Part shown: in pieces, positions 11,661 to 35,941 of the stretch | Layout of the letters: each line of letters begins with the position of its first letter | Position numbering within the stretch: position 1 is the stretch's first letter | Assembly: GCF_010119975.1 (NCBI RefSeq) | Contig: NZ_CP048222.1 | Coordinates: 8,098,501 to 8,162,500, forward strand | Length of the DNA: 64,000 bases | Reading direction: 5' to 3' | Origin: Rhodocytophaga rosea | GTDB lineage: Bacteria; Bacteroidota; Bacteroidia; Cytophagales; 172606-1 | Position numbers and translations under genes: made by a program | The notes under the pieces: generated by a model | Told to the model about the DNA's origin: nothing | Seen by the model: only the letters and a program-made list of their open reading frames with translations | Databases searched by the model: none

Positions 11661-12182
11661 TGGATAATGATTTGCACTAAAATAATGAAAAACCGGAAAG
11701 TTTATGAATGAAATTAGGGTTTCAGGTCGGTGTTTATTGTTTGGGTGGTCAAATTAAAACATTTCTTCCAGATTCAGGTAATGCCCGTCAACTCTGTTTT
11801 CTTATAACGTAGAGATAAAGTGCAATTATTTGAGGATAGTAGTAATTATTTTATTCAGCCAAGGCTTTTGCAAATAAGGTTTTGCTAAGTAACAAATATA
11901 ATTCATATACAGGGTGTAGAATGGTATAAATCAGCACTTTGAATGGAATAAATGCAACCCAAATCAGTTCTCAAAATGACAGGGGTTACTACCAGATAAA
12001 ATGGAAGGGTTTAATAGATGAATTGATTACTAAAGATGATGTTCATGTCTATTTTTGGTGAAAATATATAGTAGACAAAAAAGATCATCAGGTGAATGAT
12101 TTTATAAAAAATAAATAATCATTTTTTTGAATTGATATCGGCTGGAGGATTTATAGCAAGAGTATCTATATAACCTTCACTT
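11661..12182. other. 520-base intergenic stretch without a recognised gene
   Basis: AT-rich DNA between two minus-strand genes. It must contain the promoter of the T9SS protein. Short open frames are present but none has coding character; no RNA gene, hairpin or repeat was found. Confidence 0.5.
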
Positions 12183-12971
12183 TTACAAAGCGTCGAAATA
12201 ATCGGAGAAGTTGCCGGAGGGCTCATGAGCAGGAGAGAGGTTTTTATGAATGCTGATGGGTGTTTGTTTTCGTACCCGCACTATAATCATTCCTATTCCC
12301 ATGAGCAGGATCACTTCTCCTGCTAAAAAGAGCATCCAGTTAAAGGAGCCAGGGATATATTCCAGGGCTTCTGTAAATAAACTCTGGGAGGAAGAAAGAT
12401 TCCAGAGACTGGATAAGCCACCCTGCTGGGAAACAAAGAGTAAATAATCCCAAACAAAACTCAGGATACAAACCAGGCTGCCTAATGTAAATACCATCCA
12501 TTCCTTCTTATTGATCCGGATGCTATACCCCTGAGCATAGCCAAACATTATAAATAAGGCCAGTCCAATCATGGTAAGAGAAAGCAGGCAAGGCGCCACT
12601 ACCGGACCTACCCAGGGAACCGGAATGAGGAACAAAATATCCCAGGTGAGTAAAGATGCCGGCCAGTTAAGTAGTAGTTTCAGGAACACATAGTAAAAAA
12701 TATCCCAGATGGCAAAGGCGTAGATAAAAGCAGCAAAACGTTGAGCGGTGTTTTTGAAAGTAAGAACAGCTATTCCTGCGAGCATAACCATGGTGGCTGC
12801 TTCCCTTAAAAACTCAGTTACGGCAATACCTGGTTTGATTGGTGCAAGGGGAAAGTTAAACCCGTCCGGATAATATAATTCCCGCAAATAAACGACTACG
12901 GCTGTTTCGAGAAATCCCATGGCAATGCTGAATATGGTTAGCCATACAAGGATAGAATTAATCTTGTTCAT
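12183..12971 (-). CDS. Polytopic membrane protein of unknown function
   Basis: A 262-residue inner-membrane protein with about seven hydrophobic segments (for example ILVWLTIFSIAMGFLETAVVVY, FAAFIYAFAIWDIFYYVFLKLLL and WMLFLAGEVILLMGIGMIIVRV) and a short polar C-terminus. No family is recognised. Its start codon lies 31 bases past a TACTTTG-N5-CAAAGTA palindrome, and the winged-helix regulator gene lies just upstream on the same strand. It is therefore probably controlled by that regulator together with the membrane gene at 13332-13967. Confidence 0.7.
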   Translation of the reverse strand: MNKINSILVWLTIFSIAMGFLETAVVVYLRELYYPDGFNFPLAPIKPGIAVTEFLREAATMVMLAGIAVLTFKNTAQRFAAFIYAFAIWDIFYYVFLKLLLNWPASLLTWDILFLIPVPWVGPVVAPCLLSLTMIGLALFIMFGYAQGYSIRINKKEWMVFTLGSLVCILSFVWDYLLFVSQQGGLSSLWNLSSSQSLFTEALEYIPGSFNWMLFLAGEVILLMGIGMIIVRVRKQTPISIHKNLSPAHEPSGNFSDYFDAL

Positions 12972-20968: not shown

Positions 20969-22070
20969 AGTAATTAAACACAATTAAGTATAATATTTTC
21001 ATCTACTTCAAGTTTTTTAAAATCAAGTTTAAAGTAAGTACCCAATCCTGAAAAGATGGTATAAAGTGCCTCCTTAAGCGCTTCTACAGACAGATAGTCT
21101 TCGGCTTTGAGCCAATGATATTTCACCTGCTTCCAAAATCGTTCGATCCTGTTAAGATGAGGACTATACTTAGGCAGCAAAAAGATGTATAATCCTTTCT
21201 GTTCCCATTCTTCTTTTTTGACTTCCCATAGGCCACATGTATGCCAGGAGGCGTTGTCTAAGACTATGACAGTAAACTTGGAAATAGATGTTGAGAAGGC
21301 CTCTACACATTCAATGATAAAGTCAGCGTTTAGACTCCCACTTTTCTGATAAGTAAGCAACTCATTATTTGTACTTAACAAGCCAAATACATTTATCCTT
21401 GTACTTCTTTGGGATAAAATAGGGGCGTGTTCGCCTTTTTTGATCCATCCATAAGGTACACAAGGGGTAAGGCAAAACCCTGATTCGTCTCCAAAATATA
21501 AATCTATACTGCCTGTCTGTGCCAAATAAAGCAAAGCATGTAATCGCTTGACTTTCTGCTCATATGCTTCTTTGTTTTGCAATGGCTTTATCCATTTACG
21601 GAAACGTTTCCATCGGTAGTCAATTTTTTTAAAAACCGCTTCAAGGTCATCTCACTCATAGCCGTGCCTAATTTAGCTTCTATCTCTCGCTTAGCTAATT
21701 TAAGTTGTTGTTTTTCTTTCTCTATGCTATTTTCCACTACTTCAACATGGGTAGCATTACTGGTAGTAAGGATGGGTTTTCTGCCTTTCCCTTTTTGGTT
21801 CTTTAACCCTACCACACCTGTTTTCTCAAAGCGATCAAACCACTTATAAATACTTAACTGACTTACTTGAAAAATGCTTGCTAACTTCTGTACTTGATAG
21901 CCTTGATTGGATAACAGTATACATTGGCAACGGTTACGTTCCTGATAACTTTTACTATCTTTATGAATCTTCTCTAAGTCTTGTTTTTGCTTGTCTGTAA
22001 TCTTCTTGATATAACGCATAAGCAAAGATACAATTTGCCAAAATCTTATACTTAATTGTGTACTCTTACT
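20969..22070 (-). mobile_element. IS630-family insertion sequence 1
   Basis: A 1,102-bp element. Its ends are imperfect inverted repeats (left AGTAATTAAACACAATTAAG..., right end read in complement AGTAAGAGTACACAATTAAG..., 26 of 31 bases alike over the first 31). TA dinucleotides flank both ends (20967-20968 and 22071-22072), as expected for IS630 insertion into TA. It encodes one transposase split by a frameshift. Its right-hand TA is also the left-hand TA of the next element. Confidence 0.85.
20974..22019 (-). CDS. IS630 transposase read through a -1 frameshift
   Basis: The first part (22019-21588) starts MRYIKKITDKQKQDL and carries an HTH/homeodomain-like N-terminus (VQKLASIFQVSQLSIYKWFDRFEK). 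The second part (to 20974) carries the DDE catalytic core (LYFGDESGF, VIVLDNASWH, SPHLNRIERFW). The frames join at A_AAA_AAA (T7 at 21624-21630 on the plus strand). After a -1 slip the protein reads LKK-IDYRWKRFRKWIKPLQNK, about 348 residues, the normal IS630 length. A true slippery site is likely; a homopolymer under-call of the kind seen elsewhere in this window would look the same. Confidence 0.85.
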
Positions 22071-22072
22071 TA

Positions 22073-23250
22073 GTAGTCTATAAACATTAAATAGTCGGGT
22101 ATAGTTTTTTGAGTTTAACCCTGGCATCTTGATTGGTGAACTGCCAATTAGCTTTTACTGCTTTGTTATTTCTGCTCTCCTGCCAGGCGCTTAGCTGTTT
22201 TATTAACTCATCCTCTGTGGCAATGTGCCTGTCAAGGCAATCTCTTTGTAACACTGATAGCTCTATTTCTGCCATATTGAGCCAACTGCCATGAGCCGGG
22301 GTAAAGATAAACTCTATCCTGTCTAAATACGCTTTAGCTTTCTCAGGTTGATAAAGTTCATAAAAAGCACTTGGTTTGTGAGCCGACAAGTTATCCTCTA
22401 CTAAAGTGATTTTCTCGCATGCTTTGTAAGTAGTATCCAACAACCGGCTTAGAATCTTTACCCAGGTGAAACGGTTGTGGTTTTGCTCCACAAAACAATA
22501 TCGTTTACCGGCTAATGGCTCAAAGACCATATAGATATCACGCACTCCATGTCTTGTATAGATACTGTCCTGATACTGTTTTCCATCTTTGCCTATGAAG
22601 TGTTTGCTTTCAATAAGTTGTTTGGGTGATTCATCCAAAGTGACCAGCAGCTGCTTTTCATCATATGGCCTTTCATAGACTGAAATCACTTTTTCCATTT
22701 GATAAACAAACCCTGCATTTTGTTTAGGGGGGATCACCCACATGGGCCTCAGCCAAGGCTTAAGCTCATTTTTTTTAACAGGCTTGCCACACTCGTATGG
22801 GAAATGGAGTCAATCACCTTGAGTTCTACTAATCTGTCTGCCAGCAGTTGCAGTTTCCATTTTGCCTGTCCTTGAGGCGGCTCACTACAGACTAATGCCA
22901 GCAGATGCGCTTCTACCTTCCCATCTATCTTTTTGTCGCTTCTTAATTTTCTTGTTTTCTTATCAAACATGCCCATGCCCTGCTCACAAAAACACTTACG
23001 GATACGCTCCACACTTCTGGTAGATAATTTATAAGTTTCTGCCAACTCAGTCTCACTTTGCCTGCCTGTTGTTTCATCGCTGGCTAACAGCACATAGGCT
23101 TTTTGAATATCTTTGGCCTTTCGGCTGCCTTTATTTATCCAACTACTTAAGATCCTTCTTTCTTCAGCACTGAGGGTAATTCGATAAATGACCATGGCTT
23201 TTTTGATCAAATTACCTAATTTACCTGACATCTTATATTTTATGAACTAC
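22073..23250 (-). mobile_element. IS630-family insertion sequence 2
   Basis: A 1,178-bp element directly abutting the first. Left end GTAGTCTATAAACATT and right end (complement) GTAGTTCATAAAATAT form imperfect inverted repeats, with TA at 22071-22072 and 23251-23252. Its transposase differs from that of element 1, so the pair is not a tandem duplication. Its right end lies 23 bases from the mobile-element attachment core at 23274. Confidence 0.82.
22087..23231 (-). CDS. IS630 transposase (second type), read through a -1 frameshift
   Basis: The N-terminal part (23231-22749; a later ATG at 23195 is equally possible) has an HTH domain (ETELAETYKLSTRSVERIRKCF). The second part has the DDE core: LLVTLDESPKQLIES, KITLVEDNLSAHKPS and HGSWLNMAEIELSVL. 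The frames meet at an A8 run (plus-strand T8, 22769-22776). A -1 slip on A_AAA_AAA gives LLKK-NELKPWLRPMWVIPP and about 381 residues. It belongs to the IS630 branch with a long N-terminus. Confidence 0.83.
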
Positions 23251-23273: not shown

Positions 23274-23289
23274 ATTACTTTCCGATACA
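23274..23289. repeat. Distal attachment-site core (att)
   Basis: ATTACTTTCCGATACA, identical and in the same orientation as the end of mnmE at 35926-35941, 12.65 kb away. Neighbouring bases differ on both sides, so the match marks the exchange core rather than a longer homology. It is read as the distal junction left by site-specific integration. Confidence 0.82.
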
Positions 23290-23350: not shown

Positions 23351-23370
23351 TGAGGTACAAATAAGGTACA
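23351..23370. repeat. Arm-like repeat inside the distal end
   Basis: TGAGGTACAAATAAGGTACA, matching 19 of 20 bases with 35785-35804 at the other end, in the same orientation. It starts 61 bases inside the attachment core. Paired repeats like this near both ends usually bind the integrase N-terminal arm domain. Confidence 0.65.
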
Positions 23371-23400: not shown

Positions 23401-24090
23401 CTATTTTAAACCAACTATCCAGTATCGCATTTTGCCATCAGAATCCTTTCTATATTCAATCATGTACTCATCCAAGTTAACTGCTACACCTGTTTTAGCC
23501 GTTTTGTTAACGTCTACCCATACTTGTCTTAATTCGTTTCCTAATAAATCCTTTTCTATAATCAAAGCTCTTCTACTACCATCTTCATATTCAAAAATTT
23601 CTTCAAAATATGCTTTTGAAAATCTTGATGCCTGAGTAGTGGTTGTATATTTAGGTATATCTGTTCCACACTTATTGGAATTTTTTAAAAGTGTTTTAAA
23701 CTCTCTTGAATAATTTTCAATTAATGCTTCTTCACCTTTTATTACAATAATGTTTTCCCTTTTTACTCTCATATTAGCTGCGTATGTCCAATTATAAGAC
23801 CCAGTAATTACTATTTTTCTATCAATCACACAAAATTTATGATGATGATCATTCCAGAATATTTGTCCTCCAGTTTCTAAGAAATTGCCGTAATCAAATC
23901 CATTATTAAGATTAATTTCATCCTTGACGAGTATAATTTGAACTATAAGTCCATTAGCGGCTTTGCTCAGTAGAATATCCAATAAGTATTTATCAGTGAT
24001 CCAGGCAACAGCTACGTAAATATCAAACTCAGCTTTGTTTAGTTGCTCAAGAATAATATTTCTAATGTCACCAAAATGGGGTTCAATCAT
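23401..24090 (-). CDS. Phospholipase D-like nuclease domain protein
   Basis: A 229-residue soluble protein with one PLD domain: IYVAVAWITDKYLLDILL and the HKD-type motif HHKFCVIDRKIVITGSYNWT (about residues 83-102). A C-terminal extension of about 100 residues (ending GKMRYWIVGLK) is of unknown fold. Single-HKD proteins work as dimers and in bacteria are often nucleases, several in defence or restriction systems. It is the last gene of the element before its distal att site, and the putAbiC-type gene lies just upstream. Defence nuclease is inference. Confidence 0.75.
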   Translation of the reverse strand: MIEPHFGDIRNIILEQLNKAEFDIYVAVAWITDKYLLDILLSKAANGLIVQIILVKDEINLNNGFDYGNFLETGGQIFWNDHHHKFCVIDRKIVITGSYNWTYAANMRVKRENIIVIKGEEALIENYSREFKTLLKNSNKCGTDIPKYTTTTQASRFSKAYFEEIFEYEDGSRRALIIEKDLLGNELRQVWVDVNKTAKTGVAVNLDEYMIEYRKDSDGKMRYWIVGLK

Positions 24091-24200
24091 TCTATTTGAT
24101 TTATTAGAACGTTACAAGCTTTAATCCTTTTTATAATTTAATTGAAAGGAGTTTTAATTTGAGTTCATCCTAACTAAATGTGATGGCTTTTTGATCTTTT

Positions 24201-25064
24201 CTAATAGTCATTTCTTACACTTTCCTTCCATTTAGCTTTATATTGATCGAAATTTTCGTTGGTCAACTTAAGTTTATAAAACTCCTTTATTGATTTTAAA
24301 AAAATATTTGCTGTTATAAGTACTCCTACTTCTAGTTGGGTTTTTGTATAGTCTTCTGCTAATAAGTATTTAAACTCCAATTCGTTAACTTCTGACATGC
24401 GTTCTATTACACCCATGTTTATAAAGCCAATATTCACAAAAAATAAATTTTTTAAGTCATTTAATTGATCAGCTTCTAGGTTAGTTTTAAAAATTAACCT
24501 TTTCATAACTTCAACAGAATTGTATGCATTATGAGCAAATTTTTCAATTTGTGATTTATTAGTAGAATAAATCTTCAATAACTTTAAAATTGCTTCTTTC
24601 ATTTCTGCCGTATACTGTTCTTCTGTTTTATCAATGGGGTGGTAAACTTCATTTTTATTATCATCTAAAAATAATATTGCATCATTTCCAACGTATGTTT
24701 TCCCATTATAGATGATTGTTAGGTCACTTATTGACCGCTCAAAACGGTCAAGTTGACTATAAACAAGGGTAGTTGTTCTATTCAATAAAAATTCTTTTCT
24801 GGTTTCTTGCATTTCAGTTCTCTGTAGGCTCAACTCTGTTCGTTGAATTAAAATAGTTACAATAACACCTGTAAATGCTAAGCCGGAGAAAATAGCATTA
24901 AGTGCTCCGAATGTATCGCCAAATGTTCCACTTACGGACCAGTTAGAAAAAAAATGATTGATTATAAATGGAAAGATGATTGATATGATTATCATTCCAA
25001 GCGAAATAAAAATAAAAATCAAAAGATAATTATCAGATTCTATTTTGTCTTTTGTGTGGCTCAT
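24201..25064 (-). CDS. Putative phage abortive-infection protein (putAbiC type)
   Basis: A 287-residue protein with two N-terminal membrane helices (YLLIFIFISLGMIIISIIFPFII and FGALNAIFSGLAFTGVIVTILI). The hallmark GTFGDTFGALNAIFSGLAF segment is followed by a coiled LQRTEMQETRKEF helix and a long cytoplasmic alpha-helical domain. This arrangement is that of the putAbiC family (PF16872), proposed to act in phage exclusion. A copy of the element's 24-bp near-palindrome lies 77 bases upstream of its start. It is probably cargo that protects the host; activity is not demonstrated. Confidence 0.75.
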   Translation of the reverse strand: MSHTKDKIESDNYLLIFIFISLGMIIISIIFPFIINHFFSNWSVSGTFGDTFGALNAIFSGLAFTGVIVTILIQRTELSLQRTEMQETRKEFLLNRTTTLVYSQLDRFERSISDLTIIYNGKTYVGNDAILFLDDNKNEVYHPIDKTEEQYTAEMKEAILKLLKIYSTNKSQIEKFAHNAYNSVEVMKRLIFKTNLEADQLNDLKNLFFVNIGFINMGVIERMSEVNELEFKYLLAEDYTKTQLEVGVLITANIFLKSIKEFYKLKLTNENFDQYKAKWKESVRNDY

Positions 25065-25140
25065 TTTATAGGTGTTTCCCTTTATTAACTTTTAGCCATC
25101 CATTAGTATGTCTGGGCAGACAATCGAAATATACAAAATA

Positions 25141-25164
25141 AATTAACCTAGAATATTAAGGTTT
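25141..25164. repeat. 24-bp near-palindrome, copy 1
   Basis: AATTAACCTA...TTAAGGTTT: arms AACCT and AGGTT around an AT-rich centre. It matches 28293-28316 and 28993-29016 at most positions. It lies upstream of the putAbiC gene and could be an operator for element genes or an internal recombination site. Confidence 0.55.
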
Positions 25165-25317: not shown

Positions 25318-26250
25318 CTATCTTTTAATCATTGCTACCTCAGGCACTCTTATCCATTTTATCTTCACATCACCGGTTAACCCTTCTTTTAGGCTTTTTT
25401 CAGTGTTTTCACGCAAATTGATCAAGTCGTCCTCAAAAATTTCTACACCTGCATAAGATGTAATATAAGCATCATTTGAGGTATTTCCTGAGAAAAATAA
25501 ATTATCTAAGTAGTTGATTGCAGTTTCTATTCTCCAAGGCTCAGGTCTATAGCCTCCATGAATATAATAGTTTGTCCAACTATGAATTTGCTTTATAACT
25601 TGAAAATCAAAATCTTTTGTTCTATAAAAGCGTCTATTTTTCTCAAGTGTATTAAAACATCTTTCAGTTGTTCTAATATCAGGTTTGTTATTTACAAGTA
25701 GATAATCAATTCCAAGAATTCTTTTAATCTTATATTCAATACTTTGCCTTACAATGAATGGCGCAGATGAGGCTAAAACTATTTTTTCTCCACCATGTAT
25801 TCCTGGCTTGCCATTCCAAAATATGTTTTTGGATAATTCATTATAGAAATTAGATGGATGAATGTTTGTATTTAAAATCAACCACTTGTAATCTTGATTT
25901 TTATCAAATTGATAAATATAGGGTCTTAAATCACAAATGAAGTTGGTTAACATCTCATTACATACTTCATTCATTCCATCGGTCTCAATTTTAGAAATTA
26001 CCCTCTTCAAACTTGATTTCGCAGCGAATAAATTCGCTTTGCAGTAGTTGTTATAGTCTCTAGGTTTATCTACCTCATGAGTGAAAACCCATTGATAAAT
26101 GAAATTATCTTTTAAACCTTTTGGACAAACATTACTGCAAAGTGTTTCTAAATACTCTTTAAAATCTATAATACTATCTTTTATATTGTTAAATTCGATA
26201 TTCTTATCACTCCTTAATAAAAGAAATGCATTATAAGCTTCTTTATTCAT
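25318..26250 (-). CDS. Cassette protein of unknown function
   Basis: A 310-residue soluble protein with no signal peptide or membrane segment. It is mostly helical, with a distinctive C-terminal part: FIVRQSIEYKIKRILGIDYLL, then IHSWTNYYIHGGYRPEPWRIETAINYL. The late histidine-rich helix pair recalls HEPN-like and Abi-like proteins, but the R-x4-6-H motif is not clear. It is a single-gene cassette: an attC-like repeat (26285-26357) ends about 35 bases before its ATG. Function unknown. Confidence 0.6.
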   Translation of the reverse strand: MNKEAYNAFLLLRSDKNIEFNNIKDSIIDFKEYLETLCSNVCPKGLKDNFIYQWVFTHEVDKPRDYNNYCKANLFAAKSSLKRVISKIETDGMNEVCNEMLTNFICDLRPYIYQFDKNQDYKWLILNTNIHPSNFYNELSKNIFWNGKPGIHGGEKIVLASSAPFIVRQSIEYKIKRILGIDYLLVNNKPDIRTTERCFNTLEKNRRFYRTKDFDFQVIKQIHSWTNYYIHGGYRPEPWRIETAINYLDNLFFSGNTSNDAYITSYAGVEIFEDDLINLRENTEKSLKEGLTGDVKIKWIRVPEVAMIKR

Positions 26251-26284
26251 TCTGTATAATTAATGTTCTAATGGATCAAAGCTT

Positions 26285-26357
26285 CTCGCATACTAGCCTC
26301 TCTGAGGTATAGCTATGTGCTGAGATAGGGCTAGTTGGCGTCGAAGCTGGTGTTAGC
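26285..26357 (-). repeat. attC-like cassette repeat A
   Basis: On the plus strand: CTCGCATAC, 40 bases that can fold as an imperfect hairpin (TAGCC...GGGCTA arms with extra unpaired bases), GTTGGCGTCGAAGCTGG, TGTTAGC. The same order and spacing occur at 27213-27283 and 27824-27900. It sits between the 310-residue gene and the upstream two-gene cassette. Confidence 0.6.
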
Positions 26358-26366
26358 TGCAGTAGC

Positions 26367-26840
26367 TTATTCAATCGGTCTCCTTAAATTGTTTTTTAGT
26401 GTGTCAATTTCAAGATTAAAATCTGCAATTTTAGCTTTCAATTGCTCAATCTGTAAAATCGTTGCCGTGTCAAAGAAATAAGATCGTCCTCTACGAAGGT
26501 ATTGAATAGAAGTGTCTTGAATAAAAATTAAGTCGTTTGAACTCTTTTTAGCAGCATCTTGTAGTTTAACAATTTCTTGAGTTCTTTTAAAATCAGCTTG
26601 GTTTGAAAAATAATTTGCAAAGACCCACAAAGCTAATAGACATGCTATTATCGTAGGTATGATAGAAATGAAAAAGTTAGTTTTCTTAAAAAAACTAAAG
26701 CTTTTTTCACTTTTTAACCGCGGGGTTAAGTACTTTACTTTTTCTCGGATTTCTTTAGCCACTGCGGTTTCATTATTTTCCAACGCTTGGCTAATTAAAG
26801 AAAAAAGCTCCCTTATTTCTTTCAAAAATCTTTTAGTCAT
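26367..26840 (-). CDS. Single-pass membrane protein with coiled coil
   Basis: A 157-residue protein with a charged helical N-terminus (FLKEIRELFSLISQALENN), one transmembrane helix (about residues 50-75, FFISIIPTIIACLLALWVFANYF) and a C-terminal coiled coil (ILQIEQLKAKIADFNLEIDTLKNNL). No family is recognised. It starts 6 bases after the stop of the next gene upstream (26847-27176), so the two are made together and probably form one complex. Both lie between attC-like repeats A and B. Confidence 0.6.
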   Translation of the reverse strand: MTKRFLKEIRELFSLISQALENNETAVAKEIREKVKYLTPRLKSEKSFSFFKKTNFFISIIPTIIACLLALWVFANYFSNQADFKRTQEIVKLQDAAKKSSNDLIFIQDTSIQYLRRGRSYFFDTATILQIEQLKAKIADFNLEIDTLKNNLRRPIE

Positions 26841-26846
26841 GTGTTT

Positions 26847-27176
26847 CTATTTATCATACATAATTTCAGCTTCGGCGTCAGTCAAAGAAGTTTTCCAAAG
26901 CAACTCGTCTAACGAGTTCAGCTTACGAAATTTAGGGTAATGGAAGCCTTGTGAGACAACCGATAAAAAGGGGGCAAACAATGCAGCAGCCACCTCTAAG
27001 AAACGGAAAAAAGTCTCGTTCGTTGTGGCGGCGTCTACAAACATCTTATTGAAAATAAACCCTAAAGCGAAAAGGCTAAGGGAATTTACTAAAGCATAGA
27101 TGATATTTATCAATAGGACTTCATACTGGAAATCGCTTATTTGCTCTGAGATTAATTCTGGGTTACAATCTTGCAT
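26847..27176 (-). CDS. Small two-helix membrane protein
   Basis: A 109-residue protein with two membrane segments (VLLINIIYALVNSLSLFALGFIF and FLEVAAALFAPFLSVVSQGF), then a polar tail (YPKFRKLNSLDELLWKTSLTDAEAEIM). No family is recognised. It is the first gene of a two-gene cassette with 26367-26840, and its ATG is preceded by attC-like repeat B. A membrane toxin, an immunity protein or a small effector are all possible; nothing in the sequence decides between them. Confidence 0.6.
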   Translation of the reverse strand: MQDCNPELISEQISDFQYEVLLINIIYALVNSLSLFALGFIFNKMFVDAATTNETFFRFLEVAAALFAPFLSVVSQGFHYPKFRKLNSLDELLWKTSLTDAEAEIMYDK

Positions 27177-27212
27177 AACGGAATTTTTATTGCTGCTAAT
27201 GTATCAAAAAAT

Positions 27213-27283
27213 CCCGCATACCGTGTGCTGTGCTAAGCCTATGCTGTAGTGCACCGGTTGGCGGCCTGAATTTGGTGTTGGGC
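27213..27283 (-). repeat. attC-like cassette repeat B
   Basis: CCCGCATACC, about 34 bases of imperfect dyad (CCGTGTGC against GTGCACCGG), GTTGGCG at 27257, and GTTGGGC at 27277-27283. The last matches the GTTRRRY box of integron cassette sites. Internal spacings are close to those of repeats A and C. Confidence 0.62.
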
Positions 27284-27312
27284 GTTCGTCTTTTGTCTTT
27301 ATTTAATATTTA

Positions 27313-27789
27313 TTACTGCTTTGGTCCCTTAAGCAATTTTACTAGGTTATCCCTTTCTTCAATGGTGGGTTGGAAGTCTGGCACCAACTCAACTGCTCTC
27401 TGGAAGTCTTGCAAGGCTTTCTCCAACTGTCCTCGTTTTTTATAAAAATAAGCTCGGCTCCGGAGGGTGTAGGGATTATGCACATCAAAAGTTACGGCTT
27501 GGTTATAGTCGGATTCAGCCTGTTTAAATTCGTGTAATTGTTCATGTAAAGCAGCTAGGTTTAAATAAGTAACCGCATTTTGTCGATCTAAAGCTAAGGC
27601 CTTGCCAAAATAAGCAAAGGCTTCTTCTTTTTGGCCAAGTTCCCAATAAGCTACGCCCAAATTATTAAATCCATGCGTAGTGGGGCCGGTGTGCATCAAC
27701 GCTTTCAACTCACCAATAAATGCTTCGTAATCTTCTTCCTCGTCGTAGAGCAAGACACGAAAAGACTTCTCTAAATATAGTTCGCTCAT
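27313..27789 (-). CDS. TPR-repeat protein in a cassette
   Basis: A 158-residue soluble protein made of tetratricopeptide repeats: FNNLGVAYWELGQKEEAFAYFGKALALD, VTYLNLAALHEQLHEFKQAESDYNQAV and YTLRSRAYFYKKRGQLEKALQDFQRAVELVP. Such repeats are protein-binding scaffolds; the partner is unknown. It forms a one-gene cassette bounded by attC-like repeats C (before) and B (after). Its low-complexity scaffold nature gives no direct hint of function. Confidence 0.75.
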   Translation of the reverse strand: MSELYLEKSFRVLLYDEEEDYEAFIGELKALMHTGPTTHGFNNLGVAYWELGQKEEAFAYFGKALALDRQNAVTYLNLAALHEQLHEFKQAESDYNQAVTFDVHNPYTLRSRAYFYKKRGQLEKALQDFQRAVELVPDFQPTIEERDNLVKLLKGPKQ

Positions 27790-27823
27790 ATTTCAATCGA
27801 TGATGCCCAATGGGCCATGGCTT

Positions 27824-27900
27824 CCCGCATACCTGTCCCGATGTGTTGGAGCCCTGTGATGAGCAAGGGCTGGTTGGCGGGCGAAGCTGGCGTTGGCAAC
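27824..27900 (-). repeat. attC-like cassette repeat C
   Basis: CCCGCATACC at 27824-27833, an AGCCCT-N10-AGGGCT hairpin inside, GTTGGCG at 27873-27879, CGAAGCTGG, and GTTGGC plus AAC at the end. It lies between the TPR gene start and the stop of the 96-residue gene. It is the best-conserved of the three copies. Confidence 0.65.
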
Positions 27901-27905
27901 TGTTT

Positions 27906-28196
27906 TTACTTTTTTAATGTGCCATCCTCATTAATAAACTTGAATTGGTAACTCTGGTCAACCTCTTTTCCTCCCATTTGTATGAATGAACCAAACAGAC
28001 CTCTATGATCTTCAGAATCAAATTCTGCGTTCGTATCCCATCGAATCAGACCGTACATCTTAGAATCGGTTCTTTTGTGTTTTACTCCATTTACATCTAT
28101 ATCATAGACTTCGTCCAATTCCCAACAATCCTGTAGAACTATTCCATATTCACCATTTAAGTATACCTTCATCCCTGGGTAAAAATCGTTAGTCAT
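27906..28196 (-). CDS. Small hypothetical protein (96 residues)
   Basis: Soluble, acidic, beta-rich protein: FYPGMKVYLNGEYGIVLQDCWELDEVYDIDVNG, then YGLIRWDTNAEFDSEDHRGLFGSFIQMGG. No family is recognised; size and acidity would fit an immunity or antitoxin protein, but there is no partner evidence. The stop codon is 5 bases from attC-like repeat C. Upstream lie a cluster of ATACCCGAAA repeats and the second copy of the 24-bp near-palindrome, probably its control region. Confidence 0.55.
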   Translation of the reverse strand: MTNDFYPGMKVYLNGEYGIVLQDCWELDEVYDIDVNGVKHKRTDSKMYGLIRWDTNAEFDSEDHRGLFGSFIQMGGKEVDQSYQFKFINEDGTLKK

Positions 28197-28217
28197 ATCT
28201 TTATAGTTGCCAACATG

Positions 28218-28281
28218 TGGATACCCGAAAGTAAACTAAGTAGTTTCGGGTATCCAGCTAATTAGGACGAATACCCGAAAG
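28218..28281. promoter_or_regulatory. Cluster of ATACCCGAAA repeats
   Basis: A 13-bp perfect inverted repeat (TGGATACCCGAAA at 28218-28230 with 28244-28256, loop 13) plus a third copy, ATACCCGAAAG, at 28271-28281 in direct orientation to the first. Three copies within 64 bases ahead of the 96-residue gene suggest binding sites for a dimeric regulator; an attenuating hairpin is the alternative. Confidence 0.5.
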
Positions 28282-28292
28282 AAATTTATAAA

Positions 28293-28316
28293 AAATAACC
28301 GAAAATATTAAGGTTT
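28293..28316. repeat. 24-bp near-palindrome, copy 2
   Basis: AAATAACCGA...TTAAGGTTT, 7 bases past the stop of the 209-residue gene and 97 bases upstream of the 96-residue gene start. One base of the left arm differs (CCG instead of CCT). Confidence 0.55.
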
Positions 28317-28323
28317 GCAGTAA

Positions 28324-28953
28324 TTAAAACTTGTGGTTCTTTCCGAGTATTTTTTGCAGGGAAACGGGCATACTCTCCAAACTCCATCGTAAATGATCAG
28401 CTTCCCACTGTTTTGTTTCTAAATTTTGTACCCTCAATGCTCTTTTAGTTGGTTTTCCTTTATAGGTAGTAGGTTTACGTAATTCTTCAAGACGTTTTAG
28501 CTGCCTATCTAATTTCCAATAACGGCTATTATGGCGGTCTTTTTTTGAGCAGGTTTGTAAAGAATAGTATATTCTGTTCTTGTAACTGTTTCGGGATTTA
28601 TAAATATGGCTACCATAAGTCCGGTACAATATCCGGCAAGGAAGGCCAGTTTCAGGGCATAAAAAGTACATTACTTCGCCCTTACCCAGATTAGATGGAT
28701 AAACAACCAGTTGAATTTTATAATCATATTCAAACTTTTTACCGCTGTGGTATTCTGTTAAGATATATTTAAGTCGTACATATTTTTCATCTGGTTTATA
28801 GACACTTTCAACAATTGCGGAACTTCCATTTGTCCATGTTAATGAACCAGTCACATGTGAACCCTTTTGAATCAATTTATCTCTTAAAAGCAATTTTAAC
28901 TCAAGTTTGCAAACTTCATTAGTTGTTACTGCTCCTGTGCTGTGACGTCCCAT
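28324..28953 (-). CDS. Element-encoded hypothetical protein (209 residues)
   Basis: Basic soluble protein with a beta-rich first half (GSHVTGSLTWTNGSSAIVES, YDYKIQLVVYPSNLGKGEVMYFLC) and a possible half zinc site (FLCPETGLPC). The second half is a strongly basic helical region (KLDRQLKRLEELRKPTTYKGKPTKRALR). The basic tail fits nucleic-acid binding. No family is recognised. It is bracketed by copies 2 and 3 of the 24-bp near-palindrome and lies in the replication-side half of the element. Confidence 0.6.
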   Translation of the reverse strand: MGRHSTGAVTTNEVCKLELKLLLRDKLIQKGSHVTGSLTWTNGSSAIVESVYKPDEKYVRLKYILTEYHSGKKFEYDYKIQLVVYPSNLGKGEVMYFLCPETGLPCRILYRTYGSHIYKSRNSYKNRIYYSLQTCSKKDRHNSRYWKLDRQLKRLEELRKPTTYKGKPTKRALRVQNLETKQWEADHLRWSLESMPVSLQKILGKNHKF

Positions 28954-28992
28954 AATAATTCTTTTTTAAAGTTGTCGCTTATATTCATTTTA

Positions 28993-29016
28993 AAATAACC
29001 TAAACTACTAAGGTTT
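28993..29016. repeat. 24-bp near-palindrome, copy 3
   Basis: AAATAACCTA...CTAAGGTTT, 40 bases upstream of the 209-residue gene start. With copies 1 and 2 this makes three matching sites of equal length, each upstream of a minus-strand gene. Confidence 0.55.
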
Positions 29017-29654: not shown

Positions 29655-30983
29655 TTATTTAATTAATTGATGTTTTAAGAGTTGCAAACGGTTTAGGTAT
29701 GGCAGAAAAGTTTTGTTGCCATTATTAAATTTGATAGCGGTTAAGTGAGCATCAATAAATAGGGGTAAGTTGGTTATACTATTTCCGGGACTTAGGGAAA
29801 TGGTTTGTAATGGATTAGGCAGGTTAATAAAGAATTGTTCAAGTTCTTGTATTTCTTGCTCCCAGGTTTGTTTTACTTTTTTTATTTCAGGTATGATCAG
29901 GTTTTCGTTTTCAGGAATAATAGCATTTTTTAACCTTTTAATGGAAATTTCTGAAAAGTCAGGAGTTTCCAGGTTTTTTAGCTCCAGTATGTGGCTTTCA
30001 TTAGTATTCTTATCAAAACCATTTATAAACTCCCGGTAATCATATTTTATTAAATAGTCAGCTAAATCTAATCCTTGTTGCCTCTCTGCCTGTGTTGCTT
30101 TCCTCTCCAATAAGTTTGATACTTGAATGGTAGTTATAGAAGAGAGTTCTTTTGCTTTCTGGCTCCATTTTTCATAACCGTTGAGATCTGGAAAAAGGGT
30201 TACATTCCGGCCTGCAAGTACTCTGCATTTTTGTTTATTTAGATTATTCAGGCTCCCGGCTGCAAGCCAGATAAACTCCGGAAAATATACACTGGCAATT
30301 ATTGCTGTTTTTTCACTTTCAACAATAGCAACGGGTTTTTGTGGTTCGGATCTTAGTAAGTGTTCTCCAAATAAGCATTGATTTAAAACGAGTTGTGGCT
30401 GTTTTAACTGCTTATGTACCCAGGTAATGTGATTGAATGGCTGTTTTACTCTTTTGCCTGTAATAGGGCTGTAAAGCATTATTTTACCTGTTCTTATTCT
30501 GCCTTTACAATCTATCTGCCAGAATATGGTGGCTCCGGTTTCGCTTTCATAACCTGGGTAATCTTTGCTTGTAAACCTTTTCTTTGAACTGCCTATAAAA
30601 TACCTGCTTATTACTTTTTCAGTAGTTTCTTTACCAAACTGGCCGGTAAGATACTTTATGAAGGTGTTGCTGATATACTCTTTCAGACTTGTTTTAAAAG
30701 CCTCCACATGAATATAAGAATAGGGTAGGGGCTCTTGCTTTTTTATAGGAAGGTTGTTTTGTGGCGTTGAAAATTGAATAAAGTTATTGTCCTGGAAATA
30801 TTGCCTGGGTGTAAGATGATAACCACAATTACTTTCACGATTACAACGGCCAACGGTAGGGTTTATGTGTTTGCCTGTTTCCGTATCAACGTAAAGGCTG
30901 AATGTCCGGGCTCTTTTGCAACCCGGGCAACTGTACCGGCTGCTGATACCTTTGTATGGCTCTAAGATGTAACGATGTTCCAT
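29655..30983 (-). CDS. DUF6371/primase-like protein with CHC2-type zinc finger
   Basis: A 442-residue protein from the ATG at 30983 (MEHRYILEPYKGISSRYSCP). Near the N-terminus are zinc ligands CPGCKRARTF and, later, CNRESNCGYH, as in CHC2 primases. The middle has a toprim-like segment (PVAIVESEKTAIIASVYFPEFIWLAAGSLNNLN and VTLFPDLNGYEKW) with E and D-x-N in place of D-x-D. It probably makes primers for element replication. It neighbours the DUF3987 gene, the usual partner in Bacteroidota elements. An upstream in-frame start at 31052 is less likely. Confidence 0.78.
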   Translation of the reverse strand: MEHRYILEPYKGISSRYSCPGCKRARTFSLYVDTETGKHINPTVGRCNRESNCGYHLTPRQYFQDNNFIQFSTPQNNLPIKKQEPLPYSYIHVEAFKTSLKEYISNTFIKYLTGQFGKETTEKVISRYFIGSSKKRFTSKDYPGYESETGATIFWQIDCKGRIRTGKIMLYSPITGKRVKQPFNHITWVHKQLKQPQLVLNQCLFGEHLLRSEPQKPVAIVESEKTAIIASVYFPEFIWLAAGSLNNLNKQKCRVLAGRNVTLFPDLNGYEKWSQKAKELSSITTIQVSNLLERKATQAERQQGLDLADYLIKYDYREFINGFDKNTNESHILELKNLETPDFSEISIKRLKNAIIPENENLIIPEIKKVKQTWEQEIQELEQFFINLPNPLQTISLSPGNSITNLPLFIDAHLTAIKFNNGNKTFLPYLNRLQLLKHQLIK

Positions 30984-31199
30984 TGGTAATTTATTATTTA
31001 CATATTTATATTTTAACTTATGTAAATCTCTGGTTGCACTCCTTGCATTCATTACACTTGTGTTTACATTTTTAAATATGTATGTAACAGTTTGATTTTT
31101 AATAAACTATAAATTAACATTTGTTAAAATGTAGATAATTAAAAGGAGTTTTAGAATTTTCTGAAAATGATATAATTATAATGGGTGCGAAAGTGGTTG

Positions 31200-32627
31200 T
31201 TAATATTTCTTTTCGTATTCTCCTGTTTTTATTCTGATAAACAAATCTTTGTCATTGAGGAAATATTTAAAGGTACGTTCGGGTATTCCTAAATAATGTG
31301 CTATCTCTAAACCGGTTGAGGTTGTGAAATTATCCGGCAATAGTTCGTACAGGTTTCTTTTATCTGTACTAAGTTTATCAACCGGGCTGCTTCCTGAAAT
31401 TATGGTGTGTACTTTTGTTGCTGTATTCCTGAAGTATTCAATAAGTTGCATGGCTCCTGTAGCTGCTTTGATGCCTACATTTTCCAATTTACTTTCTCCA
31501 CAGGCATAGTACAGCAATTCAAGAATTAAAGCCAACCGTAATACATACATTTCCAGTTTGCTGTAGATACTGGCCGTATGGTCGTTTTGTGCATTTCTGA
31601 TCAGGTTGGTATTGCTTCTTTCCCAGGCGGCCAGGGCTTGTTTGGCTTCTGTAGTAAGTGATAATATACCAGGGTTTGGTGTATAATTCTCATCTATTAA
31701 TAGAGGTAATTCAAGCACATTATTTAGTATGGTATGCCAGTTATCAAAAACCTGGGTTGACAGTTCCTTATCACTCCAGTACTCCTTCTGCAAGTTGTCA
31801 GGGAAAGAAAACAGTATACGGTCAATAAATCCGTTCTGGCTCCGGTTATCCTTTGCCATAGTGTCAAGTATACCGTTCTGAATTGTGCCACAAACAGAAA
31901 TAAAAGGCAAAGGAATAAATACTGGTTCGCTTGTTTTGCGGTCAATGGTTATGGGTTTTCCGCTCCAGCAACTAAGCCAGAATTCCTGTTCAGCTCCTTT
32001 GTGATACCGGTTGAAATTTTTAAACCAGCCTGCCAGTTCATCAGCATACACACCCAACCCTCTCATATTGAATCTGTGTACCTCTGCCAGGGCTTCCGGT
32101 GTAAAGTCTGATACAATAAATTTTTGCCATGCAGGCTTTACAGGTTCGTCTATAACTTGTTGGGTCCGTTCCTTCTTTGATAGCTTGCAGGCTTTATCAA
32201 ATTCAGTTTTCAGTTTCTGATACTCCCGGAATGTTTGCTTATCCCTTTCAACAATGGGTTTTATGGAAAAGGTAAGAGGGTGGCTTTTAATAGTTCCTGC
32301 TGGTCCTACAATAGCCAGGTATAGTACAGTACTCTCATTCCATCCATTCTTTACTTGCAGCTTGTACGTGTTGCCAGTAGCAACTGAAACAGCATACAAC
32401 ATGGAACAGCCTGTAAAATCGACCGGAAAATTTAAACTTTCTTTTGTTGCTTTGATTATCTGCTGTACGGCCTGTGGGAATACCTCAACCGGAAAAGGGT
32501 TGTTTTGCTTTACAGTTTGTTCAGTAGCCCGGCTGTACTGCTGCCGGGCTTCATTCTGCAAATCTTCCATATTGATACCATTCCCAATATTGTATTTTTC
32601 AAAATCAAATTCTGGTCTGGGCTCCAT
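31200..32627 (-). CDS. DUF3987-domain replication protein
   Basis: A 475-residue protein of the DUF3987/YfjI group: helicase-like P-loop proteins found in phages, satellites and islands. Seen are VLYLAIVGPAGTIKSHPLTF (Walker A near residue 110), the Walker B-like GLGVYADELAGWFKNFN, and PLPFISVCGTIQNGILDTM. The C-terminal part is helical with a small winged-helix tail (TSTGLEIAHYLGIPERTFKYFL). It probably unwinds or loads at the element origin. Its start overlaps the stop of the upstream HTH gene by 23 bases. Confidence 0.82.
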   Translation of the reverse strand: MEPRPEFDFEKYNIGNGINMEDLQNEARQQYSRATEQTVKQNNPFPVEVFPQAVQQIIKATKESLNFPVDFTGCSMLYAVSVATGNTYKLQVKNGWNESTVLYLAIVGPAGTIKSHPLTFSIKPIVERDKQTFREYQKLKTEFDKACKLSKKERTQQVIDEPVKPAWQKFIVSDFTPEALAEVHRFNMRGLGVYADELAGWFKNFNRYHKGAEQEFWLSCWSGKPITIDRKTSEPVFIPLPFISVCGTIQNGILDTMAKDNRSQNGFIDRILFSFPDNLQKEYWSDKELSTQVFDNWHTILNNVLELPLLIDENYTPNPGILSLTTEAKQALAAWERSNTNLIRNAQNDHTASIYSKLEMYVLRLALILELLYYACGESKLENVGIKAATGAMQLIEYFRNTATKVHTIISGSSPVDKLSTDKRNLYELLPDNFTTSTGLEIAHYLGIPERTFKYFLNDKDLFIRIKTGEYEKKY

Positions 32628-34135: not shown

Positions 34136-35278
34136 TTATAATTCCAGTATAATCTTATCTGCTGCCTCCCGTTTGGTTTGGTCAATGATCTTGGCGTATA
34201 TCTGGGTGGTTTTCAGTTCCCGGTGTCCAAGCATTTTTGAAACAGTGTAAATATCTGTTCCCTTACTTAGTTGCAGGGTTGCGAAGGTGTGCCGGAAACA
34301 ATGAAAAGTAATGTCTTTTGAAATGCCTGCCTTTACCAACCATTTGTATAGATGCTGGTTGCTATAGGCAGAATAATATAAGCCATCAAATACTTTGGTT
34401 CTAGGCTCTTTCCTTTCACCCAATAAGCTGTAAGCCTGCCTAGAAATGGGTAATACCTCGAATCCTTTGGTTTTCTTTTGCTTAAAGTGTATAAAGAAAC
34501 CTTGCCCTTCAATGTATTCTATTTCAGACCAAAGTAGCTTTTCAATATCTGAAAAACGTAAGCCAGTAAGTGCCGAAAACAAGGCTGCTTGTTTTAGTAG
34601 AGGCATGGTACATTCTGTTTTTGCAAGTGCGTTCAGTTCTTCCAGGGTTAAGAAATTACGCTGTGTTTCGGCCTGCTTAACAGGTTCTATTTTTGCGTTG
34701 AGGTCAGTTTGCAAATACCCATCCTTATAGGCTTGCTTTAAAGCTGCTTTCAGCTTATTAAAATAGGAGTGTGCAGAATTCTGGGAAAGGGTGGTTTTTG
34801 TACTCCTAGTACTTTTAGCTGTTAATAGGTAATCTCTGAAATCATTACAGAACTTTTCGTTCAGGTCGGCAAATTTCAATTGGCCTTTGGTAAAGGCATT
34901 TAGGAAATGGTAAGCAGAAATCCAGTTATCATGGTTGGAAGCCTTACGTTTATCTGCCAGGGTTTTAAAGTAGCCAATAAAGCAGGTTTCACCACGTTGT
35001 TTTATTTTCAGTTGCTCCTTTTCGTATCCGGTGTAAATTTCCGGTTTATTTAATTCATTATCCCGTTTCTGCCTGATCTGCTGCGCCAGTTGCATGGTTT
35101 CTTTGTTATGCTGCTTATCAATAGGATTTTTTGATTTATCCATCAAATAAAGCCCTAAGAATTCTCTGCGAGTTGGTAGGCCGGTTTGAGGGTGGGAGAT
35201 AGGTGGGTAAAAATCCAGGTACAAGCTTTGCCGGTTCCCTGAAATGGGTTTTTGCCTTAATTTTACTTGAGTTGTCAT
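34136..35278 (-). CDS. Tyrosine-type site-specific integrase
   Basis: A 380-residue tyrosine recombinase that would join the element to the 3' end of mnmE and release it again. It has an N-terminal arm-binding domain, a SAM-like core-binding domain (about 100-200) and a catalytic domain. Catalytic residues are the arginine of ALTGLRFSDIEKL, the HCFRHTFATL box (H-x-x-R), histidine in LGHRELKTTQIY and the tyrosine in that segment. It lies 650 bases from the att core at mnmE, with only the zinc-finger/HTH gene between. Matching arm-like repeats occur at both element ends. Confidence 0.93.
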   Translation of the reverse strand: MTTQVKLRQKPISGNRQSLYLDFYPPISHPQTGLPTRREFLGLYLMDKSKNPIDKQHNKETMQLAQQIRQKRDNELNKPEIYTGYEKEQLKIKQRGETCFIGYFKTLADKRKASNHDNWISAYHFLNAFTKGQLKFADLNEKFCNDFRDYLLTAKSTRSTKTTLSQNSAHSYFNKLKAALKQAYKDGYLQTDLNAKIEPVKQAETQRNFLTLEELNALAKTECTMPLLKQAALFSALTGLRFSDIEKLLWSEIEYIEGQGFFIHFKQKKTKGFEVLPISRQAYSLLGERKEPRTKVFDGLYYSAYSNQHLYKWLVKAGISKDITFHCFRHTFATLQLSKGTDIYTVSKMLGHRELKTTQIYAKIIDQTKREAADKIILEL

Positions 35279-35755: not shown

Positions 35756-35805
35756 GAGGTACAAATAATACTTTTCAACCCGCTTGAGGTACAACTAAGG
35801 TACAA
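35756..35805. repeat. Arm-like repeats inside the integrase end
   Basis: GAGGTACAA at 35756-35764 and 35786-35794, and AAGGTACAA at 35797-35805. The last two form TGAGGTACAACTAAGGTACA, nearly identical to 23351-23370. A 7-bp inverted repeat (CGGGTTG/CAACCCG) surrounds the first copy. Likely integrase arm sites. Confidence 0.65.
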
Positions 35806-35925: not shown

Positions 35926-35941
35926 ATTACTTTCCGATACA
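35926..35941. repeat. Attachment-site core at the end of mnmE
   Basis: ATTACTTTCCGATACA; on the minus strand it reads through the codons for the final C-I-G-K and the stop of MnmE. The identical sequence at 23274-23289 marks the other end of the element. Because the core includes the stop codon, insertion leaves the MnmE protein unchanged. Confidence 0.85.

Follow-up and report, generated by a model that had tools for sequence, protein, structure and literature searches.

SGI1 elements are described as inserting at the 3′ end of trmE/mnmE (PMC8409611) and as carrying a cassette array that is the In104 integron segment (PMC3285670). The window analyzed here, a stretch of 64,000 nucleotides from Rhodocytophaga rosea, contains an island that has the same insertion site and also carries cassettes, whereas it is found in another phylum and is 12.65 kb long; the comparison with the SGI1 family covers the insertion site only. 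Integrons in Bacteroidota are known at the level of the phylum (PMC8618304, PMC9668308, PMC9024848), and no description of arrays like the present ones was found in the literature examined. In these three papers, integron arrays and CALIN usually have one ORF per cassette, a single orientation, covarying hairpins and an R′/R″ match to the next cassette, all of which apply here. The differences are that sites of the window type have CA|TT or CG|TT at the crossover, no IntI scores over the cut-off, and the recombinase examined lacks the IntI-specific stretch.

Two genes lie at the outer end of the island, encoding a membrane protein and a phospholipase D (PLD)-family protein. PLDc_2 nucleases (Nuc, and the Zucchini/mitochondrial cardiolipin hydrolase type) have one HKD motif, as the window protein does, and align with its N-terminal 135 or so residues, whereas the window protein adds about 90 C-terminal residues and has an unusual partner gene. 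The putAbiC family shares with the membrane protein a membrane module of two helices at the N-terminus, which has a GTFGDTFGALNA-type motif, a similar size and the status of an accessory gene of mobile elements, but its proteins have PF16872 in the C-terminal part, where the window protein gives no detectable match. SNIPE is a membrane-bound anti-phage nuclease (PMC13190303). The likeness to SNIPE is one of idea alone, that of a membrane-held nuclease cutting DNA during injection; SNIPE is treated there as one membrane-bound nuclease, whereas the window has separate membrane and nuclease genes.

An integrative island at the 3′ end of mnmE

The two genes form the outermost transcription unit of an integrative island of 12,652 bp at the 3′ end of mnmE (TIGR00450, 407 bits). 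Its features are as follows.

23275-23289 (+): att repeat, outer end (TTACTTTCCGATACA), exact 15-bp copy
23352-23370 (+): putative integrase arm site, outer end, by repeat match
23401-24090 (-): PLD-family (single HKD) gene, 229 aa, outermost gene of the island; PF13091, E = 2.6e-22
24201-25064 (-): gene for a two-helix membrane protein, 287 aa, with a putAbiC-like N-terminal module and a divergent helical C-terminal part
25140-25163 (-): putative operator/promoter, a palindrome 76 bp upstream of the gene for the membrane protein
25318-26271 (-): open cassette 4, a 310-aa ORF of unknown family after a cassette start (covariance-model search and box analysis)
26272-27199 (-): cassette 3 (109-aa ORF 26847-27176, 157-aa ORF 26367-26840), attC-like site 26261-26360, 90.3 bits by covariance model
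27200-27810 (-): cassette 2 (TPR protein 27313-27789), closed by attC-like site 27189-27285, 66.7 bits by covariance model
27811-28213 (-): cassette 1 (96-aa ORF 27906-28196), closed by attC-like site 27800-27900, 93.5 bits by covariance model
28292-28315 (-): putative operator, copy 2, upstream of the first cassette
28324-28953 (-): orphan gene (209 aa) preceded by a putative operator of its own; homologues in few genomes
28992-29015 (-): putative operator, copy 3, 39 bp upstream of the 209-aa gene
29655-32627 (-): island core, DUF6371/zinc-ribbon and DUF3987 proteins (Pfam)
34136-35278 (-): tyrosine integrase with arm-binding domain (PF00589, PF13102, PF17293)
35786-35804 (+): putative integrase arm site, inner end, by repeat match
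35927-35941 (+): att repeat, inner end, exact copy of TTACTTTCCGATACA, formed by the last codons and stop of mnmE

Thus, direct repeats of the target site, an integrase near one end and an empty site in a relative are all present, as is required of an integrative island. By chance, a mean of 0.09 such 15-bp repeats would be expected even when up to 2 mismatches are allowed, and the arm-site repeat occurs nowhere else in the window. In the sister genome, the sole other genome of the genus examined, the island is absent after mnmE, which is followed by a gene read as glycosyltransferase-like and then by citrate synthase. The GC content of the pair is 0.296, against 0.390 for the window. The first-pass annotation had described the two genes as lying side by side at the element end away from the integrase, as the outer cargo of an integrative element. 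Indeed, they stand on one strand (-) and 110 bp apart, the repeats and the integrase put them at the far end, and the att repeats, arm sites and empty site support the reading as cargo.

HTH proteins are also encoded between the att repeats, and the core genes probably have a replication-type role. No relaxase or transfer gene was recognized in the island by Pfam scans, and Rfam gave no match in it. Homologues of the 209-aa gene were found in 10 of the 296 sampled genomes of the phylum, the own genome included. Just outside the island, two adjacent IS630-family elements occupy 20974-23231, between its outer end and a desaturase-like gene; the interval from mnmE to citrate synthase of the sister genome has neither.

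The 24-bp pattern AACCTTARTANTNTNGGTTAWTTT of the palindromic element, with up to 2 mismatches, occurs 3 times in the window and in none of 100 shuffles. At the same stringency, it occurs 3 times in the whole 8.98-Mb genome, each time in the island and upstream of a gene, and the reversed control gave 0. One copy precedes the membrane gene and none precedes the PLD gene. The pattern probably serves as a promoter-operator with a regulatory role, and read in this way it would bring the pair under the programme of the island itself. The SOS box consensus of Bacteroidetes is given as CTAA-N5-TTAG (PMC8565304). The three copies read CTTA-GTAGT-TTAG, CTTA-ATATT-CTAG and CTTA-ATATT-TTCG; the likeness is partial and no copy fits both dyad halves, so that control by DNA damage (SOS) can only be guessed at. 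A looser palindrome (CCTWA, 4-6 bases, TWAG) lies 40 bp before the 209-aa homologue in locus L147 and 27 bp before that in L148. It is also intergenic in L145, L149 and L151, and is missing from 4 of the 9 loci scanned. Since only these 4 are without it, the looser palindrome is a frequent motif, and its recurrence before 209-aa homologues is suggestive only. Operator-related palindromes in intergenic DNA of other genomes are found at L147:10408, L148:10173, L151:12236 and L145:9670.

Integron-type cassettes and candidate recombinases

Next to the pair, three small cassettes of unknown genes had been reported from a first reading of the DNA. This holds and can be sharpened: there are three cassettes closed by attC-like sites and one open cassette, for which the covariance-model search found no closing site. 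The start of cassette 1, TTGGCAAC at 28213, is the exact partner of the R″ box of its own site, and the boxes match at 5/6 in cassettes 2 and 3, that is, in both neighbor pairs of the window. Both ORFs of cassette 3 have hydrophobic segments. The same search found no attC-like site on either side of the membrane/PLD pair, so these two genes do not form a cassette. The stretch from the operator to the first cassette (28214-28291) contains TTTCGGGTAT repeats in direct and inverted orientation. CACATG|TT, the first junction, is found again where the L126 array begins, and the stretch is possibly an attI-like site.

The covariance model was built from ten site copies. With it, the own genome yielded at least 62 sites and the sister genome at least 113; in ten further genomes, none was found among the 150 candidates scored per genome. 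Because of this number of candidates, the counts are lower bounds and the zeros are weak. Site statistics were taken from 80 sites, 78 of them distinct. Pairing is kept in 86.8% of cells versus 62.3% when shuffled, and falls to about 41% if the partner is slid by one base. The covariation score is 0.634 versus 0.206 for shuffled sites, where the alignment was fitted to the structure, which favors the score; in the first, unfitted alignment, 10 of 19 pairs were changed on both sides. Neighboring sites are on one strand in all cases (69/69). Of the 63 intervals shorter than 2.5 kb, 60 have their longest ORF in the sense of the sites.

R′/R″ complementarity that passes from cassette to cassette is the trace expected of single-cassette insertion by an integron. 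With boxes read at fixed positions of the covariance model, the six bases after the crossover TT were compared with the complementary box of the next site. They match at 5/6 or better in 44 of 63 neighbors, 34 of these perfectly, versus 2 of 78 within one site; over 6,006 ordered pairs, the rate is 4.2%. Of all the signs, this one is decisive. Thus, the arrays show what is asked of integron cassettes: tandem order, one strand, structure-conserved sites and R′/R″ complementarity between neighbors. The crossover context is CA|TT in 45 and CG|TT in 26 of the 78 sites. Arrays of one-ORF cassettes with attC-like sites, each on one strand, also lie elsewhere on the chromosome (C1:614300-626546, L125; 1285943-1290333, L126; 8729894-8731574, L117).

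A complete integron should have an IntI with its specific additional domain, and this was not found. No protein of the own or the sister genome exceeds the cut-off of TIGR02249 (integron integrase). Two chromosomal arrays (L125 and L126) are headed, in the direction of the cassettes, by two recombinases, one of 356 and one of 596 aa. The former scores 225.1 with NF040815, named "site-specific tyrosine recombinase/integron integrase" (cut-off 220), and 217.5 with TIGR02249 (cut-off 265); the latter scores 229.9 and 210.8. In the alignment of the 356-aa protein (L126:13618-14688) with IntI4 (2a3v), chain residues 14-183 and 251-319 are aligned and 184-250 are skipped; in place of these 67 residues, the recombinase has 24. 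Its alignment with XerA (5hxy) shows no such break. The 596-aa protein skips a profile stretch of about 179-242, the structural alignment having been made for the 356-aa protein only. We place the IntI-specific domain in the skipped stretch of IntI4. This domain is called necessary in PMC9668308, with earlier work cited. Their position in two arrays suggests that the array-head recombinases may act on the attC-like sites. This adjacency is known for the two arrays of the own genome only, because the recombinase contig of the sister genome (L160) is just 9.2 kb long and has no site in it.

A further tyrosine recombinase, of 321 aa, is present in about eight near-identical copies in the genome. 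Followed by an IS91-family transposase, it lies at L125:5523-7657, L126:702-2635 and 10622-12756, and L127:1294-3428. In two cases, the match to this recombinase begins 149 bp after a site (495615/495764 and 617005/617154), and this spacing is a hint that it targets the sites.

Together, an integron type with no canonical IntI can be proposed, albeit tentatively and with more doubt than belief. Its CA|TT or CG|TT hairpins would be recombined by a XerA-like recombinase at the heads of large chromosomal arrays, and the island would export cassettes from these arrays and drive them, together with the pair, from one island-specific and possibly DNA-damage-responsive operator.

The PLD protein and the membrane protein

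The PLD gene had been annotated as encoding a single-HKD protein, and this proved correct. The protein has the PLDc_2 domain (PF13091, 79.5 bits against a cut-off of 27) and an intact, single HxKx4Dx6GS motif, HHKFCVIDRKIVITGS, at residue 83, which together define the superfamily. At E ≤ 0.001, the only related proteins of solved structure are chains of mitochondrial cardiolipin hydrolase, of the Zucchini type (E = 7.8e-8). Nuclease or phosphodiesterase chemistry is what the family would lead one to expect. The C-terminal stretch of about 90 residues has no recognized domain, and the single-sequence AF2 model of the protein is poor (pLDDT 42.6). Relatives were found in 54 of the 296 sampled genomes, the own genome included, most of them matching residues 1-140 alone. 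Membership in DISARM or Dpd is not indicated: PADLOC gave weak scores only, the best being 27 bits for DrmC, with 19.1 bits for DpdK, DpdK of NCBIfam scored 18.4 against a cut-off of 100, and no DISARM or Dpd partner gene was found among the island ORFs scanned.

The other protein was first called a putAbiC-type membrane protein. The membrane part of this claim stands, and the family assignment holds in part. Hydrophobic segments at residues 8-41 and 51-75 make anchoring in the membrane well supported. The N-terminal 90 or so residues match ORFs that carry PF16872 in three genomes (G046 on contig C6, G210 and G275), and it is from these three ORFs that the module is called typical of putAbiC. 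PF16872 itself (22-bit cut-off) did not match the window protein at E ≤ 1, and a six-frame search of the own genome gave 0 matches; it matched in 24 of the 296 genomes. Because the N-terminal module is common to both but PF16872 is undetected, the protein may be regarded as a putAbiC-like variant rather than a proven member. It was itself matched in 10 of the 296 genomes, the own one included. Full-length relatives have 58-61% identity (three records, titled Maribacter, Flagellimonas and Sporocytophaga), and a fourth locus matches the N-terminal part alone. Conserved columns across the full-length relatives span the whole protein. Given the module common to PF16872 ORFs, this identity and conservation over the whole length, the protein on sequence grounds belongs to a coherent family of its own, which combines the membrane module of putAbiC with a C-terminal part that is either different or has diverged strongly.

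No domain was detected in the C-terminal part. The AF2 model is mostly helical and of medium confidence (pLDDT 74.8, pTM 0.60). Foldseek gave no match with it at E ≤ 0.001 in PDB or BFVD, and the VIA structure search gave generic helical bundles only (Z ≤ 6.5), a result that is uninformative for helical bundles. Of the four plasmid records that match the N-terminal stretch, two bear the annotation "putative phage abortive infection protein". In viral contigs, no relatives were found with each protein as a single query; an alignment query found four loci with the N-terminal module, none with an HKD neighbor by motif.

If the two families work together, they could be expected to recur as neighbors, and the first-pass annotation had offered this as a check. 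The outcome was mostly negative. No PLD gene lies beside a full-length relative of the membrane protein (0/3), a test left incomplete by short flanks at two loci (288 bases upstream in L015, about 2.7 kb downstream in L013). At the third, L014, a two-HKD, cardiolipin-synthase-like gene lies 3.5 kb away on the opposite strand and was read as housekeeping. More widely, a PLDc_2 gene was found within 6 kb in 2 of 35 putAbiC or N-module loci, against 0.27 expected under uniform placement. These loci came from 30 genomes, 28 by PF16872 search and 7 by search with the membrane protein, and several lie near contig ends, for which the expected value is uncorrected. In G257, the order is putAbiC, two unknown genes and the PLD gene, and the genes beside them were interpreted as encoding a helicase and a restriction-modification pair; this PLD protein gave no BLASTP alignment with that of the window. 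In G039, the PLD protein has two domains and about 1,100 aa. Neither is clearly of the same family as the window PLD protein. In G084, the gene 17 bp after a putAbiC gene resembles PLD genes in its motif alone. Thus, putAbiC-type genes can occupy defence-like neighborhoods. At L013:6010-8887, ParA-like and SIR2_2 genes come immediately after the gene for a full-length relative of the membrane protein, another possible defence neighborhood.

Possible functions of the pair

The pair had been said not to be a recognized combination, and it is indeed not an established system: no system-level match was found in PADLOC, NCBIfam or Pfam, and no such pair of a putAbiC or abortive-infection gene with a PLD gene appears in the titles or abstract starts searched in one open-access library. 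A defence role is plausible from the resemblance of the families, and phage-defence cargo that works as a coupled unit is the preferred reading. This reading draws on the intact HKD motif, the PLDc_2 family and the single-HKD phosphodiesterases among solved relatives, and on the membrane module, common to annotated phage-abortive-infection proteins and found in the four viral contigs. The SIR2_2 neighborhood of the full-length relative, the arrangement of the two genes (one strand, 110-bp gap, operator before the first only), and the island ends, empty sister site and low GC content of the pair also favor it.

A coupled membrane-sensor/nuclease mechanism against phages can be imagined, with a probability somewhat below even. 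Two N-terminal helices would place the membrane protein in the inner membrane, and its helical cytosolic part may sense infection or the entry of DNA. The PLD protein would be a phosphodiesterase of the Nuc/Zucchini type, expected to form a dimer, and may cut nucleic acid at or near the membrane, either phage DNA as it enters or nucleic acid of the host cell. Of these steps, the coupling between the proteins is the most doubtful. Membrane sensing with adjacent cutting of nucleic acid is preferred by analogy with membrane-held nuclease defence (SNIPE, PMC13190303). Three points weaken this coupled mechanism: the families show no recurrent linkage (0/3, and 2/35 with a PLD family that is not clearly the same), the C-terminal part of the membrane protein has neither a domain nor a convincing structural match, and the 110-bp gap leaves room for a separate promoter of the PLD gene.

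Equally likely, the two are independent cargo genes, a stand-alone infection-exclusion or abortive membrane protein and a separate nuclease. The full-length relatives without a PLD neighbor, the N-module relatives in viral contigs without an HKD neighbor, and the wide occurrence of PLD relatives that mostly cover residues 1-140 all agree with this, whereas the common strand, close spacing and single operator copy ahead of both genes speak for a unit. Nuc, one of the PLD relatives, is encoded on plasmid pKM101, and PLD relatives were found on 1,273 plasmid records, of which 1,021 are predicted to be conjugative. The PLD protein might then serve the spread of the island itself, like nucleases of conjugative plasmids, rather than defence; this is improbable, as the Pfam scans recognized no relaxase or transfer gene in the island and the PLD gene sits with the cargo, away from the integrase and core genes. 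That both genes are passengers which at present do nothing, and persist only because the island is a recent arrival, would suit the low GC content, the finding that the one sister genome examined has no such island and the lack of an orthologous pair elsewhere, but it is the least credible explanation, with both frames intact, the HKD motif complete, and residues of the membrane protein conserved in relatives from three other genera retained.

In kind, the locus is ordinary, with defence-like cargo carried on a mobile island. The membrane protein is a variant, and no precedent for the pairing was found in the literature titles and abstract starts or the databases named above. The shared operator confined to the island and the integron-type cassettes without a canonical integrase add to its interest. 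If the pair works as preferred here, this would be a defence of two genes in which one provides the membrane anchor and the other the nuclease, and a case of defence genes under the control of the island itself. If the proposal for the cassettes is true, at least 62 integron-type sites without a recognized integrase would mean that cassettes can recombine without need for the IntI-specific domain, and such cassettes might help to explain why few integrons were reported in this phylum by an integron-finding study.
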